Source: Candidatus Woesearchaeota archaeon | GTDB taxonomy: Archaea > Nanobdellota > Nanobdellia > Woesearchaeales > SM23-78 | Length of the DNA stretch: 59,327 bases | NCBI GenBank assembly: GCA_016930415.1 | Contig: JAFGGS010000006.1 | Span: 1 to 59,327, forward strand | Reading direction: 5' to 3' | Part shown: one piece after another, positions 41,812 through 52,210 of the stretch | Layout of the letters: each line of letters opens with the position of its first letter | Position numbering within the stretch: the stretch's first letter is position 1 | The notes under the pieces: model-generated | Told to the model about the DNA's origin: nothing | Database searches by the model: none | What the model saw: only the letters and a program-made list of their open reading frames with translations | Translations under genes and position numbers: made by a program

Positions 41812-43020
41812 TCAGTTTAGCAGGTCTTCTTCCAATATCTTCTTGATGTTCTGCTCCAAATATGTTGGGAGCTGGAAGCTTATGTCTCTCGTCCTTCCGA
41901 GCCTGCCTTTTGAAATGACTTTGGCGTTTATTATACCCAGCATGTCTAGCTCTGCTATGATATCTGACACCCTCCTTTGGGTAAGGGGGCGAAGACCTAC
42001 CTTGTTGCATATCTCTCTATAAGTGTCATACACGTCGCCAGTCTGTATGAAATTGAACTTGGAGTCTTTCTTGTTGACCAATATGGCATAGAGCGTGGCT
42101 TGGAATTGTTTTGGGTGATTCTTGACTAGTTCTAAGACCCTGTCTCGCTCTATTGTGTCTTCTGCCTCGTCAATCTCCTTCATCGATATCTTCTTGAGAT
42201 TTTTTCTTTCAGCAAGCTCTCCCGCCACTCTCAGCAGTTCGAGGGCTCGCCTTGCGTCTCCGTGCTCTCTTGCGGCGTAGGCAGCGCACTTCTGGATGAC
42301 ACCATCATCCATTATCTCGTCCTTGAAGGCCTCGCTTGATCTCCTTTGGAGTATGTCTTGGAGTTGGAGCGCGTTGTAGGGGGGAAATATCACTTCCTCC
42401 TCGCTTAAGCTGCTCTTGACTCTCGGGTCCAGGCTGTTTGAGAAGACGAGGTCGTTGCTTATGCCAACTATTGAGGTCTGAGAGTTCTTGAGCTCAGAGT
42501 TGATCCTTGTAAGGTTGTATATGAGCTCATCCCCTGCTTTCTTGACGAGTTGATCTATCTCGTCGAGTATGAGGATTATCACTTGCTTCTCCTCGTCAAG
42601 GACCTTGTAGAATGTGTTGTATACTTCGTCAGTCGGAAGCCCCGTCGGCGGGATCTCCTTGCCGAATGATCTTGCGAGTTCCGCTACTAGCCGATACTCT
42701 GTGTCAGCGACTTTCTTTAGCTTGCAGTTGAGGTAGACTATCTTTAAGGGTATCTTCTTATTGTAGGCTAGCGTCGTCATCTGCTCTGCTAAGTACCTGA
42801 CTGAAAGCGTCTTGCCTGTGCCTGTCTTCCCGTAGATGAAGACGTTTGATGGCTTTTCCATCTTCAGCGCGGGTGCGAGGATGTTGGCTATCAGGGTTAT
42901 TTGCTCGTCGCGGTGGTTGATCTCGCCTGGGATGTAGGCTGATTGCAACACCTTTTTGTTTTTGAAGAATGATTCTCTTTCCAGGAATCCTTCCAGGAGC
43001 TTGTTGATATTATTTACCAA
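41812..43020 (-). CDS. cdc6: Orc1/Cdc6 replication initiator
   Basis: 402 residues. AAA+ domain with Walker A IYGKTGTGKTLSVR (63-76) and Walker B ILILDEIDQLV (149-159); sensor and lid region to about 290. The C-terminal winged helix (about 310-402) would bind origin boxes. The start is TTG after AAAGGTGA. It recognises origin recognition boxes and loads MCM. It lies upstream of the PolD genes and next to a 950-base AT-rich gap holding box-like cores, the classic archaeal arrangement at an origin. Confidence 0.95.
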   Translation of the reverse strand: MVNNINKLLEGFLERESFFKNKKVLQSAYIPGEINHRDEQITLIANILAPALKMEKPSNVFIYGKTGTGKTLSVRYLAEQMTTLAYNKKIPLKIVYLNCKLKKVADTEYRLVAELARSFGKEIPPTGLPTDEVYNTFYKVLDEEKQVIILILDEIDQLVKKAGDELIYNLTRINSELKNSQTSIVGISNDLVFSNSLDPRVKSSLSEEEVIFPPYNALQLQDILQRRSSEAFKDEIMDDGVIQKCAAYAAREHGDARRALELLRVAGELAERKNLKKISMKEIDEAEDTIERDRVLELVKNHPKQFQATLYAILVNKKDSKFNFIQTGDVYDTYREICNKVGLRPLTQRRVSDIIAELDMLGIINAKVISKGRLGRTRDISFQLPTYLEQNIKKILEEDLLN

Positions 43021-43976
43021 GATTTCACCTTTGAATTGTTGGAGAACTCAAAGTTTTTCATTCTATTTTTTGATTGTTTGCTTGTAGATTTTGAGTTTTT
43101 TAGTCGACTCTTCATTATTTTTCCCCCAACCAAAATCTCCAGATGAAGCAGGGGTTTATAAACATTCCTTTCCTGTGGAATATATTCAAAAAAATGCCAG
43201 ATTATGAAATATGTTTTGCAAAACACACAACACGAAACTAGACACCCACACCTTTATTTCCTTTGGAATTTTTTTGAAAGTGAAAATTGAGGTTGAAAAT
43301 ATGTTAAGTTTGGGTTATGACGGACTCTTTTGAAGTGTGTTTTGGAAAATATCCTCAATAAGTAGATTTAAAATGAAAGGGTAAAATTAGTTGAAAAGTA
43401 TGTTTTTAAGATAAGAATTGGATTTTTGATGTGGTTTTAGTATTATTCAATCTTTGTGTTTTTTGTTGTTCTTGCTTGTTTTTTTGAATTTTTTTCATTT
43501 TTATTGAAAACATAATGTAAAATATATAATATAATATAAATAATATAATATATAATATATATAATATATTTCTATATAGAAATGTAATGAAACAAAACGA
43601 GAAAAAATTACAAAAAAGAAAAAAAATTGAAGAAGGAAACATAAGATGAATGAGAAACAAAGAAAAAAGAATCTGAAAGAAAAATTTGATTGAAAATGAA
43701 AGAAAAATTTGATTGAAAAATTTGATTTTTTACGTGTTGTGGATTGAGTTGATTCAATTTTTTTGGCGTTCATTTTCTTTTCGAGTTGAAACCAAGGGGT
43801 GGGTGTGTTTGGAAGCGCAATTTTCCTTCTCAATTCTTGATTTAAGCTCGTTTTACCTCCAATTAAAAAAATTTGTTTTCACTATCTAATAACAACAAAA
43901 GAGAAACCTTTATAAATAAGAACCATTTCCTCTAAGTTCCAACTGATGACAAAATACATGAGAGGTTAGCAAAAAA
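43021..43976. other. Long AT-rich intergenic region upstream of cdc6 (candidate unwinding element / origin)
   Basis: 956 bases without a credible gene. Two origin-box-like cores lie at 43169-43180 (TTTCCTGTGGAA) and 43257-43268 (TTTCCTTTGGAA). About 70 bases at 43511-43580 are almost pure A+T. A perfect 16-base palindrome is at 43568-43583 (ATTTCTAT/ATAGAAAT). A 23-base direct repeat is at 43674-43696 and 43697-43719. A palindromic GTTTATAAAC (43154-43163) can serve as the cdc6 TATA box, and CTTTATAAATA (43908-43918) as that of the second TrmB gene. The rest is A-rich or T-rich filler. Confidence 0.6.
43674..43719 (+). repeat. 23-base tandem direct repeat, two copies
   Basis: Two adjoining identical copies at 43674-43696 and 43697-43719, each containing AGAAAAATTTGATTG, followed by a third partial copy (AATTTGATTT). 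It lies inside the AT-rich gap and may simply reflect low complexity. Confidence 0.6.
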
Positions 43977-46476: not shown

Positions 46477-48495
46477 TCATTCGATCTTGGCGATTACTCC
46501 ATGCTTCGGGCTGTATATGTCGCCTGACTTCTTAAGCTTCTCAATTACTTCATTAGTCTTGTCCTTGTCAACGCCCCGAAGCTCACATTCACGCTCAACG
46601 TCCTCTAAAGGTATGACCTTTCCAAACACCCTCTCAAGCTCGTTTATGACTTCTTTCACAGTCACCACATGGTTCCTGTGGGAGGCAGTTATTCCTGTCG
46701 TCAAGGTGTCGATGTCAATCTTTCCAGTCTCAGGGTCAAGGCCTATCTGGGACAGTGAGTAGTGGAGCAGGTCAATAGCTTTTCTGGCGTCTTTCTTAGT
46801 GACTTTAGTCCTAAGTTCGCTCTTTGCGCTCGCCTCGCTCATCCTGACCATTGCCTCGAGCTGTCTTGCGCTTACTGGGATTGCCCTGATCTTTCCATCC
46901 TCCTGCCCCGCATTTCTCATGGTCACGTAGTACTCTTTGATCTCTTTCGTGGCCGCATCCGTGAGCTTAGGCTTTATCCTTCTCCTGGCGTACGAAACAT
47001 ACTTCTTGATCTTGTCAGAGTCAAAGAACGTTTCCTTCTTCTCATCGCTCTGATGCAAGTCAAGAAGGAAGTTGGCAAGAGCGCCATCCCCTTCCTTACT
47101 TGGAAGATCTCTTATAGCGAATATAAGGTCGAATCTGTTGAGAAGTGTTGGTGGAAGGTCTATTTGTTTGGCTATGAGTTCGTAAGGGTCAAATCGGCCT
47201 AGTTTTGGGTTTGCGGCGGCCAAGACAGTAGTCTCTGCCTTGAGAGTGGCCTGGATGTTGGCCTTTGCAATGGTGATGGTCTGCTGTTCAAGGCCTTCGT
47301 GCATAGCCACCTGGTCTTCTTTTGTCATCTTATCAAGCTCGTCAATGCAACAGATTCCTTTGTTGGTGAGGACCAGCGCTCCTGCTTCTAAAGCCCACCC
47401 TTTGAGGAACTCGTCCTTCACGACGCTCGCAGTGAGGCCCGCGCCGCTAGCGCCTTTTCCACTCACATACCTGCTCTTAGGAGCAACTGTGCTTACCCTT
47501 TTTAGGAGCTGGCTCTTTCCGCTTCCAGGATCCCCTATTAGGAGGATGTGCATGTCTCCCCTAGTCACATCTCCCTTCTCCCTCTTCTTAGGGACTCCTC
47601 CAAACATCTGGAGCAAGATGGCTTCTTTCACCTTTTCATGACCGTATATGCTTGGTGCAAGCGAGTCTCTTAGCTTGTCGAACACATTAGGGTCTTTTGC
47701 CAGTTCCCTAATCTCCTGTTCTTCCTCTTCGCTTATCTCAAGCTCGTAGAAATCTTCCTGGACCGCTTCGACAAAATTGGTGTCTAAGAACAGGTCGAAC
47801 TTAGTGGTCTTGATCCCATGCTGCTCTATCGGGATCTCTTTTACAACCCCATTCACCCTGACCTTGCTTCCAGGATTGGTCTTCTTATCGCTAAGAGGGC
47901 TTACTAGGTCGCTTTTGAGGAAAATCGCAAGCCTCTTTGGCTGCTCTCCCCCATCCAGGTCTTCAGGGGCTTCTTCAAGCACAATCCTCTGGGCGTCTAT
48001 AAGCTCTTTTGAGATTGTCCTGAAGCGCCCTTTCCTGCCGCAACTGCACCTACTCGGCTCCTTGAAGACAGTGTCTGTCTGCAATACTGTGATTATGTTG
48101 CCGCAGGCAGGGCATTCGAATCTTGCGCTGGTCACTTGAGGGCGCACGTCACTCTTCTGCCTGACTAGGCCATCAAACTCGACTAGCTTGTCTATGTGTG
48201 TGGCCCTGATGTGCCTGATGCTTACCCTCTGGGATTCTGGCAGGCCAAAGAACCTCACCCTGAAGCTCTTGGTGTCTCCCTCTATGTCGAAGTTGGCGAT
48301 TGCCAGTTCTGCCGCCCTGATGGTGTCTTCTGGATTCTCAAGGAGCATCTCTGCGAGCTCAGGATTGTATTTTGCTAGAAGCGAAAAGTCTATCTTAAGG
48401 AATTTTTCCCCTTTGCTTGCCTGCCTTACAAGGTCTTTGTGATAATCTGATTCTATGAACTCGTAGAACAGGTTTATTTGTTCACTCACATCCAA
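46477..48495 (-). CDS. mcm: Replicative helicase MCM
   Basis: 672 residues, no intein. The N-terminal domain contains the zinc motif CPACGN...CSCGRKG (about 125-160). AAA+ domain: Walker A GDPGSGKSQLL (about 320), Walker B CIDELDKM, sensor 1 AAANP and arginine finger LLNRFDLIF. A C-terminal winged helix (about 600-672) ends the protein. The start is TTG (or the GTG two codons later). It forms the hexameric 3'-5' helicase loaded by Orc1/Cdc6. TBP, upstream on the same strand, is 132 bases away. Confidence 0.97.
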   Translation of the reverse strand: MDVSEQINLFYEFIESDYHKDLVRQASKGEKFLKIDFSLLAKYNPELAEMLLENPEDTIRAAELAIANFDIEGDTKSFRVRFFGLPESQRVSIRHIRATHIDKLVEFDGLVRQKSDVRPQVTSARFECPACGNIITVLQTDTVFKEPSRCSCGRKGRFRTISKELIDAQRIVLEEAPEDLDGGEQPKRLAIFLKSDLVSPLSDKKTNPGSKVRVNGVVKEIPIEQHGIKTTKFDLFLDTNFVEAVQEDFYELEISEEEEQEIRELAKDPNVFDKLRDSLAPSIYGHEKVKEAILLQMFGGVPKKREKGDVTRGDMHILLIGDPGSGKSQLLKRVSTVAPKSRYVSGKGASGAGLTASVVKDEFLKGWALEAGALVLTNKGICCIDELDKMTKEDQVAMHEGLEQQTITIAKANIQATLKAETTVLAAANPKLGRFDPYELIAKQIDLPPTLLNRFDLIFAIRDLPSKEGDGALANFLLDLHQSDEKKETFFDSDKIKKYVSYARRRIKPKLTDAATKEIKEYYVTMRNAGQEDGKIRAIPVSARQLEAMVRMSEASAKSELRTKVTKKDARKAIDLLHYSLSQIGLDPETGKIDIDTLTTGITASHRNHVVTVKEVINELERVFGKVIPLEDVERECELRGVDKDKTNEVIEKLKKSGDIYSPKHGVIAKIE

Positions 48496-48627: not shown

Positions 48628-49305
48628 TTATTTGACTGCCTTCAGGGTCTCTACCAGCTTATCGAGCGCAGTGTGGACCTCTGCTTCAGACTTGGTTCCT
48701 GTGCAAACAACCTTCCCGTTGCTGAACAATAGGAATGTGGCCTTTGCTTCCATAAGCTTGTATACGAGTCCTGGGAACTGCTCTGGCTCATATTCTGTGT
48801 TGTCAAGTTTCATGGCTAGAACGTTAAGGTTAAGGTCCATCCCTATGTTGCCGCTGGCGACTATGTTCTGGATGTTGATCTTCGGAGTCACAGTTATCTT
48901 TATGCCTATCTTCTTGAGACTCTCTATGATCCTTTCAATGCTCTCATGCACCTTCTCCATGCTCCTCGCGCCAGTGCACACTACCTTTCCGGAGCTGAAG
49001 ATGAGGGCGCTCGTCTTAGGATCCTTTATCCTTATGACCAGCCCTGGAAACTGCTCTGGATTGTATTCTGTGTTGCTCAGGGTAGCTGCCATCTTCTCGA
49101 GCGGGATGTCATGCTCAAGGCTCGTCGAGACTACTATGTTGACTACTTTTATGTCTTTAGGTCCTGCGTCAGGGTACTTATCTACCTTGGCTTTCTGGAC
49201 TTTCGGCACCATCTTCTTTGCTGGCACCGCATTCTTAGATTTCGCTACCTTGCCCTTCTTGGGCTTTGGCGCGCTGGTTTTCTTGGTTGTTTTTTTCTTT
49301 TTCAT
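48628..49305 (-). CDS. tbp: TATA-box-binding protein with a Lys-rich N-terminal extension
   Basis: 225 residues. The TBP saddle (about 50-225) shows its two homologous halves: NTEYNPEQFPGLVIRI with FSSGKVVCTGA, and NTEYEPEQFPGLVYKL with FSNGKVVCTGT. The first 46 residues are nearly all Lys, Ala, Pro, Thr and Val, unlike typical archaeal TBPs of about 180 residues. This tail could add nonspecific DNA contacts. A TATA box (49331-49340) 30 bases upstream supports the ATG used. Confidence 0.95.
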   Translation of the reverse strand: MKKKKTTKKTSAPKPKKGKVAKSKNAVPAKKMVPKVQKAKVDKYPDAGPKDIKVVNIVVSTSLEHDIPLEKMAATLSNTEYNPEQFPGLVIRIKDPKTSALIFSSGKVVCTGARSMEKVHESIERIIESLKKIGIKITVTPKINIQNIVASGNIGMDLNLNVLAMKLDNTEYEPEQFPGLVYKLMEAKATFLLFSNGKVVCTGTKSEAEVHTALDKLVETLKAVK

Positions 49306-49423: not shown

Positions 49424-49450
49424 TAACCCCCCATCATTTCCTGTGGAAAC
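49424..49450 (-). promoter_or_regulatory. Origin-recognition-box-like element 1
   Basis: On the plus strand CCCCCC (49427-49432), then TCAT, then TTCCTGTGGAAAC. On the minus strand it reads GTTTCCACAGGAA, a short spacer and six G, like known Orc1/Cdc6 boxes. Confidence 0.65.
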
Positions 49451-49510
49451 GCCATTTTTAGCCCATTATAACGGCGGAAACGAGAGGAGTTGAACACATT
49501 TTCGAGCCAA

Positions 49511-49537
49511 ATAACCCCCCATTATTTCCTGTGGAAC
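49511..49537 (-). promoter_or_regulatory. Origin-recognition-box-like element 2
   Basis: Same orientation as element 1 and nearly identical: CCCCCC (49515-49520), then TTTCCTGTGGAAC ending at 49537. It starts 87 bases after element 1 starts. Confidence 0.65.
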
Positions 49538-49551
49538 TTCCTCTTAGCCAA

Positions 49552-49566
49552 TTCTCCACAGGAAGC
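49552..49566 (+). promoter_or_regulatory. Partial origin-box core, inverted
   Basis: TTCTCCACAGGAAGC is the inverse orientation of the box core in elements 1 and 2, without a G string after it. Confidence 0.4.
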
Positions 49567-49649: not shown

Positions 49650-50351
49650 ATGTTAGGGTGGCTCAGGAAGAGGATTGAGCAGAAAGAGCTTCATTCAAGC
49701 CTGTCATCTGCCTTCTTGAAGATAAAGGAGGACTTGACCCTCCAGAAGAACTTCATCGAGGACCTTCATAAGAATCACTCTCATTTGAAGGATAATACCT
49801 CTGTAAATCACCAGCGCATCGCTGAGTGGATAATCCATTTCGACAAGTCCATAAAGCGTCTTGAGAAGGATCTCTTGACGCTTGAGAATAAGATATATGC
49901 TGACCTGGCCACGATGGTGGTCGATTCTTCAAAGAAGCTGGAGGGTTCGCTGCACGCCCACAAGGCAGAGCTCCACACCCTCAAAGAGGTCTTGAAAGAG
50001 GAACTGAAGCGTGACCTCTTGGTTTTTGTTGAAGATTCCAAGCTCAAACGCGCTTCTGAGCCCGTTATTAACGTTGATAACGTTGATAATGTTAATAACA
50101 TAACGTCTGAGGCTAGTTTTGAGGCCCTTTCCAATCCTGAGAAGTGGCTCGTGGGGGTTTTGTTCAACACAGAGGCCCCTCTTTCATATGCTCAGATAGC
50201 TGAGCGGACGGGCAAGTCCATCAGTACTGTGAGAGTATATATGAACCAGCTTAAGATTAAGGGTTTTGTTGAGGAGTCAAGCCTTCCTAATGGCGTGAAG
50301 ATATTCAGCCTTAAACACAAGGCTAAGGTGAAGAAGCTCTATAATCTTTGA
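49650..50351 (+). CDS. Coiled-coil protein with C-terminal winged-helix domain, beside the candidate origin
   Basis: 233 residues from ATG 49650 (MLGWLRKRIEQKELHSSLSS). I prefer this to ATG 49626 because of the TATA position. The first 140 residues form long charged helices, probably a coiled coil. A linker VINVDNVDNVNNIT is encoded by four tandem 9-base repeats. The last 80 residues (EKWLVGVLFNTEAPLSYAQIAERTGKSISTVRVYMNQLKIKGFVEE) form a helix-turn-helix/winged helix. I know no named family. DNA binding is inferred from the winged helix; binding to the neighbouring repeats is a hypothesis. Confidence 0.75.
   Translation: MLGWLRKRIEQKELHSSLSSAFLKIKEDLTLQKNFIEDLHKNHSHLKDNTSVNHQRIAEWIIHFDKSIKRLEKDLLTLENKIYADLATMVVDSSKKLEGSLHAHKAELHTLKEVLKEELKRDLLVFVEDSKLKRASEPVINVDNVDNVNNITSEASFEALSNPEKWLVGVLFNTEAPLSYAQIAERTGKSISTVRVYMNQLKIKGFVEESSLPNGVKIFSLKHKAKVKKLYNL
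50064..50099 (+). repeat. Four tandem 9-base repeats inside the coding region
   Basis: GTTATTAAC, GTTGATAAC, GTTGATAAT and GTTAATAAC follow without gaps. The first and last are exact inverse complements. The same words recur at 50561-50577 downstream of the gene. Confidence 0.85.
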
Positions 50352-50484: not shown

Positions 50485-50588
50485 CATTATAATGCATTAT
50501 AATGTGCGTTATAATGGCCATTATTCTCATTATAATGCCCATTATAATGTTTATAATGCATTATTAACGTTAATAACGCATTATAATG
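50485..50588. repeat. Array of CATTATAATG palindromes with a central long palindrome
   Basis: Exact copies of the self-complementary 10-mer CATTATAATG lie at 50485-50494, 50495-50504, 50528-50537, 50540-50549 and 50579-50588. Variants are CGTTATAATG at 50507-50516 and TTTATAATG at 50550-50558. A nearly perfect 22-base palindrome is at 50558-50579 with the core ATTAACGTTAAT. The array lies in a 424-base gap with no gene. Confidence 0.9.
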
Positions 50589-50775: not shown

Positions 50776-51654
50776 ATGACAGACAACCCCTTGAACCTAT
50801 CCTTGAGCCTATATGTATTAAGATATGCAGAGATAGCCCTAAAAGGAAAAAATAGGATATTTTTCGAAAAAAAGCTTGTTGAGAACATAGGATTATACCT
50901 AAAAAAACAAGGAGGTTTGGCCAAAGTCAAGCGTCTCCATGGCCGAATCCTTGTGATGTGCGAAAAAACCCCTAAGTTCGAACAAGTCTTCGGAATAGTA
51001 TCCTACAGTCCTGCTCAGGAATTCTCCGCAAACTGGAAGATGATGACTCAGGAAACCCTGTCTGAGCTTAAAAAACATGAAAAAACCACCACATTCAGGG
51101 TTAGCGCGAAGAGGCTTACAAAAGACTTTTCCAAGACCTCGCCAGAGATCGAACGGGAGCTGGGAGCTCTGATAGTAGAAGCCACTGGCTGGAAGGTAGA
51201 CTTAGAGGCTCCTGAGCTAGACGTCTGCCTCGAAATCATCGGCCCAAGCTCATACCTCTTCACAAAAACCATTAAGTGCTTAGGAGGTCTACCAGTCGGG
51301 GCGGAAGGCAAGGTCTTGGTTCTGATAAGCCAAGACCCTAAGTCCCACCTCGCCGCCCTTCTTCTCGCAAAGAGGGGATGCGACATCCAGCCAGTCATGC
51401 TTGAAAGCCAGAAAACCCCTGATGTTGCTCTTCTTGAGAGCTTCCTCCCAAGACAAGTCACCATCGAGAAGCTGACTGGCCCTGATCAGATGGATATCGT
51501 CGCTGAAAAGCGCTTTTGTACTGCAATCATCGTCCCAGACACTCTCGGCACGCTTCAAGAATATGATTCTTCCTATCCGATCCTAAGACCCCTGATCGGC
51601 CTTTCAGACGAAGAAGTCCTTGTCGAATTGGAAAAGTATAAAAGGGCTCTTTAG
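50776..51654 (+). CDS. ThiI-like THUMP protein with a degenerate, shortened PP-loop domain
   Basis: 292 residues. VLRYAEIALKGKNRIFFEKK (14-33) is the N-terminal ferredoxin-like domain of ThiI, and a THUMP domain follows (about 60-168). GGLPVGAEGKVLVLIS matches the entry to the PP-loop ATPase domain. The ATP-binding SGGxDS motif reads SQDPKS (185-190), and the chain ends soon after LRPLIGLSDEEV instead of continuing about 30-100 residues. It is therefore probably not an active 4-thiouridine synthase, though it could still bind tRNA. The RNase P p30 gene follows after 13 bases. Confidence 0.78.
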   Translation: MTDNPLNLSLSLYVLRYAEIALKGKNRIFFEKKLVENIGLYLKKQGGLAKVKRLHGRILVMCEKTPKFEQVFGIVSYSPAQEFSANWKMMTQETLSELKKHEKTTTFRVSAKRLTKDFSKTSPEIERELGALIVEATGWKVDLEAPELDVCLEIIGPSSYLFTKTIKCLGGLPVGAEGKVLVLISQDPKSHLAALLLAKRGCDIQPVMLESQKTPDVALLESFLPRQVTIEKLTGPDQMDIVAEKRFCTAIIVPDTLGTLQEYDSSYPILRPLIGLSDEEVLVELEKYKRAL

Positions 51655-51667
51655 AATTCTCCTTCTC

Positions 51668-52210
51668 ATGAAAGACGTCGACGTGTTATGCCCTGAAGGG
51701 AACGAAGCAGCGCTCCTTGTGTCTGCTGAGAAGCTCGGATTCAAGGAAGTCATCCTCTTATACGAAGGGTTCTCCAAGAAGGAGATCGATTATTCAGGCA
51801 AACTGAAGATCCGCCTGGCGGCCTTCATAAGGGACATGGGTGACGCAGGCGCCGCGAAGAAACACCACGAACTGGTCTTTGCACCTGCTGAGAGGCCGTT
51901 CTTCGAATCCCGCAGAATAGATTATGTCATCGACGCTGAGAGCGCGTCAGAAGGCAAGGACTTCTTCTACCAAAGAAGAGCAGGCCTGGATGATCCTATG
52001 TGCAAGCTGGCCCTGGAGCGGGAGATTACGATAGTCTTCGGTACTGGCTCTGTAACCGACGCGATAATGCTGGGGCGGATGGTCCAGAACGCGAGGCTGT
52101 GCCGAAAGCACAAGAACAAGACCCTAATCGCGACCCTAGCAAAAGACGTGCTCGGGATGAGATCAGCCAAGGACCTTGAGGGCTTCGCGAGGACGATAAA
52201 GTTGCGGTGA
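51668..52210 (+). CDS. rnp3: Ribonuclease P protein component 3 (Rpp30)
   Basis: 180 residues from ATG 51668; a longer reading to 51620 would overlap the previous gene. The TIM-barrel-like p30 family is recognised by FYQRRAGLDDPMCKLALERE and MLGRMVQNARLCRKHKNKT, followed by VLGMRSAKDL. It pairs with Pop5 on RNase P RNA. It is shorter than most archaeal p30 (about 210-240). The ThiI-like gene before it suggests a tRNA-maturation operon. Confidence 0.85.
   Translation: MKDVDVLCPEGNEAALLVSAEKLGFKEVILLYEGFSKKEIDYSGKLKIRLAAFIRDMGDAGAAKKHHELVFAPAERPFFESRRIDYVIDAESASEGKDFFYQRRAGLDDPMCKLALEREITIVFGTGSVTDAIMLGRMVQNARLCRKHKNKTLIATLAKDVLGMRSAKDLEGFARTIKLR

Follow-up and report, generated by a model that had tools for sequence, protein, structure and literature searches.

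The palindromic array that lies 3' of the gene for a winged-HTH (wHTH) protein, here called A, on a contig of Candidatus Woesearchaeota archaeon is very probably the binding platform of the protein that this adjacent gene encodes, an inference for which there are as yet no binding data. Judged from metagenome-assembled sequences, the pair of A and an array, with a motif that differs by family, is one that recurs across a class of archaea. We refer to the whole stretch of DNA that was analysed, 59,327 nucleotides long, as the window; its features are collected in the table below.

Within 104 bp, the window array contains five exact copies of the 10-mer CATTATAATG, starting at 50485, 50495, 50528, 50540 and 50579, together with the near copies CGTTATAATG at 50507 (one mismatch) and GTTTATAATG at 50549 (two mismatches). 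The array starts 134 bp past the stop codon of gene A and has a GC content of 25%, compared with 49% in the window. An earlier note on this DNA had counted five exact and at least two near copies of a palindromic 10-mer in 104 bases, and our recount gives the same result; the 22-base palindrome that it also described, at 50528-50549, proved to be imperfect (two copies around CC), and the longest perfect palindrome measures 20 bp (50485-50504). Ten matches to the 10-mer with at most one mismatch occur in the window, a number reached by none of 100 dinucleotide shuffles (shuffle mean 0.84). The genome-wide frequency of CATTATAATG is not high: the genome, at 1,300,433 bp, contains five copies, 5/5 of them inside the array, and the reversed 10-mer, which served as a control, has no occurrence in the whole 1.3 Mb. 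Taken with the 7-mer scan and the site densities described below, the shuffles and the genome count rule out chance or AT-rich noise as the source of the array. A dispersed REP/MITE-like repeat is ruled out because there is one locus only, and scans for Rfam elements and tRNAs found neither.

Table. Features of the window discussed in the text, with array sequences of other types (positions are those of the window)
Feature	Position	Strand	Remarks
orc1/cdc6 initiator gene	41875..42966	-	6.7 kb from gene A
MCM replicative helicase gene	46477..48495	-	neighbour
TATA-binding protein (TBP) gene	48628..49305	-	divergent neighbour of A; kept in G003 and G006
ORB-like element	49425..49450	-	reverse complement: GTTTCCACAGGAAATGATGGGGGGTT
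Lone array-type site	49464..49473	.	CATTATAACG; between ORB-like elements
ORB-like element	49513..49536	-	reverse complement: TTCCACAGGAAATAATGGGGGGTT
Third ORB-like core	49555..49564	+	TCCACAGGAA; opposite orientation
Gene A	49650..50351	+	233 aa; N-terminal MLGWLRKR, coiled coil, linker, C-terminal winged HTH
Linker-coding DNA of gene A (VINVDNVDNVNNIT)	50063..50105	+	GTTATTAACGTTGATAACGTTGATAATGTTAATAAC; array-like
Array	50485..50588	.	CATTATAATG x5 and near copies
Palindrome embedded in array	50561-50576		TTATTAACGTTAATAA
Array sequences of other types			GGACATGTCC, TAGTCGACTA

A search with the single protein A returned one named relative, from a Candidatus Woesearchaeota MAG. A profile of 27 members detects A in 196 of the 374 class genomes, almost always as a single copy, although some of the weaker matches may be its paralogue B (see below), and a sampled search across the phylum found A, among the matches listed, in the same class only. 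No orthologue was detected at the thresholds used in G001, G002, G004 and G005, which belong to the genus of the window; these genomes are incomplete. All of the genomes are metagenome-assembled and come from uncultured organisms, and the families are phylogenetically nested and not independent. We scanned each of 36 fetched loci for its strongest over-represented 7-mer cluster without supplying a motif, and in 32/36 related loci the top cluster fell in the linker-coding DNA of A or 3' of the gene; the array of G120 is placed 1.6 kb downstream of A. Directly 3' of A, CATTATAATG is found in G003, from the same genus as the window, and CGTTATAACG in G006, and arrays of CATTATAATG follow A in G054 and G043, which represent other families. 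Conservation beside orthologues of the 49650-50351 gene, which the earlier note had proposed to look for, was therefore found both within the genus and outside it. At the 25 loci with an assigned 10-mer, sites occur at 8.45 per kb in the 500 bp 3' of A, 0.42 per kb in the 500 bp 5' of it and 0.14 per kb in the rest.

The motif of the array tracks the recognition helix of the protein that the neighbouring gene encodes. Helix RVYMN is found with CATTATAATG (families f1, f49 and f61), RVNMN with CATTRYAATG, CATTGCAATG included (f38), RVYVK with TGTTATAACA (G140), VKNQINSIK with TAGTCGACTA (G010), IRNLIYEL with GGACAWGTCC, and IKNRLNK with TGTTACRYGTAACA-type sites. In the G010 genome, 4/5 copies of TAGTCGACTA are inside the array. 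CATTRYAATG occurs 16-26 times per f38 genome (reversed control, 3-11), with only about half of the copies within the array, so that these genomes may have some sites elsewhere. Genome-wide, the looser 9-mer GGACAWGTC is no commoner than background, and it is only its clustering at A that stands out. One f38 genome has a second small CATTATAATG/CATTGCAATG cluster 18 kb off its main array (G119:C19:70593-70640). Three members of A, at loci L048 (G016), L055 (G100) and L059 (G011), have a different C-terminal domain, CSKSSFYRxLxELE, and the arrays of such members are made of TGGGACTGTCCCA, TAGTCYCA and ATTCCCA, some of them 5' of the gene.

Neighbouring sites are separated by 10 bp (29 cases), 12 bp (13), 19-22 bp (24) or about 30 bp, and the spacings concentrate in phase at a period of 10-10.25 bp (R = 0.70, n = 83). 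Because the loci are related, this figure carries no formal probability. Helical phasing of this kind would be expected if the protein loaded cooperatively along one side of the double helix.

In many relatives, binding-type sites lie within A's own linker-coding DNA. Where arrays are intragenic, GGACA half-sites recur every 3-4 codons from the coiled coil to the wHTH; ACAGCTGTYCAA repeats supply the codons of the linker QTAVQTAVQ in Pacearchaeota-like families, and codon choice in these linkers is skewed compared with that elsewhere in the genes concerned (Gln CAA, p = 1e-7; Val GTY, p = 3e-9). The linker peptide varies by family yet spells the family's own repeat, and it is therefore the DNA, not the peptide, that appears to be selected. 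For the window linker, VINVDNVDNVNN, the coding DNA is GTTATTAACGTTGATAACGTTGATAATGTTAATAAC; this sequence is similar to the array and occupies the position at which other families have exact cognate sites.

Alignment of relatives favours 49650 over 49626 as the start of gene A. A structure model gives the protein a long helix (residues about 51-136) followed by a disordered linker, and the C-terminal winged HTH covers residues about 160-210 (Pfam HTH_24, 6e-6). The AlphaFold model has a pLDDT of 60 and is poor in its wHTH part because it was built from two sequences only, no others being usable. Searches of Pfam, NCBIfam, PHROGs and PADLOC identified no named family for A beyond generic HTH, and its PDB relatives are generic coiled coils and wHTH regulators only. 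Against PADLOC and phage families A gave only weak HTH/coiled-coil matches, and its assignment to a known defence or phage family was rejected on these grounds. An origin of plasmid or phage type was likewise set aside, a tblastn search of 72,556 plasmid and 50,697 phage records having found nothing.

Three ORB-like cores, assigned by sequence similarity, sit between the TBP gene and gene A. The earlier note had described two ORB-like elements flanking CATTATAACG, and had read this site as the reverse complement of 50507-50516; the elements are present, and the complementarity is exact. Further ORB-like cores at 43169 and 43257, just upstream of orc1/cdc6 and 6 kb from the TBP-A pair, mean that the origin may be bipartite. 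Cumulative GC skew in the window reaches its minimum at ~54 kb, which fits an origin near the array and is weak evidence in a 59-kb contig. The window genes scanned near A encode an OB-fold protein, MCM, TBP, a ThiI-like protein, an Rpp30-like frame and UbiA; the Rpp30-like frame, at 51620-52210, is one that we take to resemble RNase P subunit p30, and it has no Pfam match at E 0.1.

The distance from A to cdc6, 6.7 kb in the window's genome (G000), is about 11 kb in G003 and G006. Among genomes in one contig it is 2.4 kb in G458 (535 kb), 5.4 kb in G426 (829 kb) and 16 kb in G516 (711 kb), and values of 2.8, 2.6, 7.5, 8.2 and 8.6 kb were obtained for G431, G455, G433, G378 and G496, respectively. 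In genus g1 an ORB is found 0.1-0.2 kb upstream of A. Elsewhere A lies far from cdc6, at 31 kb in G010, 140 kb in G047 and >300 kb in G016 and G098. Archaeal origin features (ORB and cdc6 near A) are met in genus g1 and several families, not in G016, G098 or G047, and the distances in these three genomes rule out an array that is an integral part of oriC everywhere. Since gene/array units can be so distant from Cdc6 in other families, we regard the unit as autonomous and not as an obligate part of oriC: it is often at the predicted oriC, in some families it has changed position, and it is A, not ORB, that the array accompanies.

A shorter paralogue of A, termed B, is encoded beside A in the majority of class loci; many members of the order have AK6 next to A in its place. 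The B gene of the window's genome lies on a different contig, has no array and adjoins a gene for an Xer-type tyrosine recombinase (PF00589, 6.5e-47). The ORB TCCACAGGAAATnnnGGGGTT is located inside a convergent gene B in most of the class loci that were fetched, as well as in G268; there it encodes S(T/I)GNxGVP, its third codon positions hardly vary, and it resembles the window ORB elements almost base for base. The ORB in the B linker is seen as STGNxGVP at L151:3769-4404 and in the B genes of L137-L149 and L153. B genes also carry a repeat array of their own, TDRQTDRQTD being spelled by ACAGACA. Genes for Xer-type tyrosine recombinases lie near A/B at L163-L167, L137, L138, L148, L149 and L151, and further such neighbours are found at L053, L055, L059, L062, L154 and L155. 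Their recurrence suggests a link to chromosome dimer resolution.

We propose that these parts act together in three inferred steps, the first of which has strong support. The C-terminal winged HTH of A would read the half-site CATTA, with pairs of A occupying each 10-bp palindrome. Copies one, two or three helical turns apart would then, as their spacing implies, load many molecules of A on one DNA face and so build a single compact nucleoprotein complex at one place on the chromosome. In the third and more weakly inferred step, this complex would be tethered by the coiled coil, together with the N-terminal MxWFxKK segment, which is conserved, to a partner that may be a sister complex, the membrane or the cell-division machinery; the N-terminal segment of A has only a modest hydrophobic moment, so that membrane attachment is a guess. 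Tethering would allow the origin region to be held or moved apart in a centromere-like manner, and B, a paralogue that is often encoded beside A, with its own array and near an Xer-type recombinase, probably acts in the same process. We give an even chance to the idea that A and its array form such a self-linked, centromere- or RacA-like anchor, usually at oriC, in which binding, tethering and segregation are all inferred. The segregation step in particular is deduced from the protein's architecture, the restriction of the sites to one locus, the linkage to the origin and the Xer neighbours, and it counts against this step that a scan of window genes near A showed no ParA-type ATPase. More tentative still, and held with some doubt, is the broader suggestion that A and B, both of them coiled-coil proteins with a winged HTH, with their hyper-variable and partly intragenic arrays, their linkage to oriC and Xer and their lack of a linked ParA, constitute an undescribed segregation or origin-tethering system of Nanoarchaeota-type archaea.

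The coincidence with ORB and Cdc6 fits origin regulation equally well as anchoring. A (and B), bound to the arrays, could help or restrain Cdc6/MCM at oriC as an origin regulator or initiator accessory, a role comparable to those of UBP on ucm and WhiP at oriC3, with intragenic arrays as in phage lambda O. The ORB inside B and, in g1, upstream of A would be explained in this way, as would Cdc6 at 2-16 kb in many genomes, MCM as the next-but-one gene to A in the window and the arrays within linker-coding DNA. However, in several families the unit is separated from Cdc6 by 31 to >300 kb or stands on a different contig, the array stays beside A and not beside ORB, and no ATPase or helicase-loading domain was found in A; the wHTH does have matches to phrog_270 (7e-4), phrog_186 (8.5e-4) and Phage_rep_org_N (4.5e-3), but these phage-type matches are weak and generic. 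We consider a regulatory role at the origin, the chief alternative to the anchor, possible, though on the unlikely side. The gene of lambda O contains, in its linker-coding part, the repeat sites that the O protein binds (ori-lambda), whereas the gene of A is chromosomal and archaeal, its wHTH is C-terminal and a replication function has not been shown. The term iteron-like, used in the earlier note, is not established in its strict sense of replication initiation.

An operator for A's own gene or for the gene downstream is an improbable function for the array. The winged HTH of A is of a type common in archaeal regulators, and arrays touch the gene and even stand 5' of an A gene in G361, G098, G100 and G011; nevertheless, sites are about 20x denser 3' than 5' of A and many fall in the coding linker, a distribution that, being sparse at the promoter, speaks against simple autorepression. 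Further, the downstream genes vary by family (ThiI-like, Rpp30-like, convergent AK6 or partner B), and there is no regulon, 5/5 copies of CATTATAATG being in the array. From the choice of partition, origin regulation and autoregulation offered in the earlier note, DNA-binding sites as such emerge with support, while the 3' and linker placement disfavours autorepression in its simple form. That the array works at the RNA level, as terminator or processing hairpins transcribed 3' of A with no protein-binding DNA array, is scarcely credible: its RNA, 126 nt long, does fold much more strongly than shuffled sequences (z -7.0), as palindromes must, but the motif follows the adjacent recognition helix, sites lie on both sides of the gene as well as within coding DNA, phasing at ~10.25 bp along the helix has no rationale at the RNA level and Rfam gives no match.

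Returning to the anchor that we propose, we found no description of this system in the open-licence literature on segregation or origins in DPANN/Woesearchaeota, and A fails at least one defining feature each of SegAB, AspA-ParBA, WhiP/Cdc6 and UBP. SegB, a ribbon-helix-helix protein of Sulfolobales and others with partner SegA, has 39 chromosomal peaks, its best sites near its own genes and one motif across genera (PMC12284271). The sites of A, as in SegAB/ParABS, cluster near the gene of the presumed binding protein, but A is a wHTH protein with one locus and a motif varying between families, and no ParA/SegA-type ATPase is encoded with it in the scanned part of the window, to which this statement is confined. 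AspA of plasmid pNOB8 is an archaeal winged-HTH dimer that binds a palindromic centromere by its own gene, forms extended protein-DNA helices, has one 23-bp upstream site, spreads on DNA and is accompanied by a parBA cassette (PMC5120986). A shares the winged HTH and the palindromic sites near its own gene, and differs in its multi-copy 10-bp array, which is 3' or intragenic, and in its long coiled coil; the window neighbours of A that were scanned include no parB-parA cassette, and the PDB matches of A no AspA chain.

WhiP and Cdc6 are DNA-binding proteins encoded beside their own origin sites, in linkage-specific replicator-initiator pairs (PMC4010727). A is likewise encoded beside its own array; by contrast, the array already has Cdc6 and ORB beside it, A is far from Cdc6 in several families, and Pfam and NCBIfam detect in A a generic HTH only and no initiator architecture (AAA+ or WhiP-like), no direct comparison with WhiP having been made. 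UBP of Sulfolobales is a non-initiator nucleoid protein found on the origin ucm element and at hundreds of other sites (PMC12141716), and A, if it binds as predicted, would also be a non-initiator protein with an origin-linked element, whereas in G000 its motif is found in one array and nowhere else. RacA of Bacillus subtilis combines an HTH with a coiled coil and anchors the origin region through ram sites that are dense near the origin (PMC6593407). The same combination and sites near oriC characterize A, but the HTH of RacA is N-terminal and ram sites are chromosome-wide, while in A the wHTH is C-terminal and the array is single and self-linked, and we found no sequence relationship between the two proteins. 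Provided that the inferred anchoring is correct, RacA would be the nearest analogue of A by function, with the domain order reversed.

Chromosome segregation is called enigmatic even in model archaea (PMC12284271, PMC11381335). For the small symbiotic (DPANN) archaea, whose mode of chromosome segregation is unknown, A and its array offer a concrete candidate protein/DNA pair. With arrays in the linkers of A and an ORB in B, the same bases serve origin DNA and protein coding, and the arrays provide a sequence handle to locate oriC in many Pacearchaeota-like genomes. Because about half of the genomes sampled from the class carry A, with about one gene each, and a motif is predicted for each family, both its binding and a role in the cell cycle are testable.
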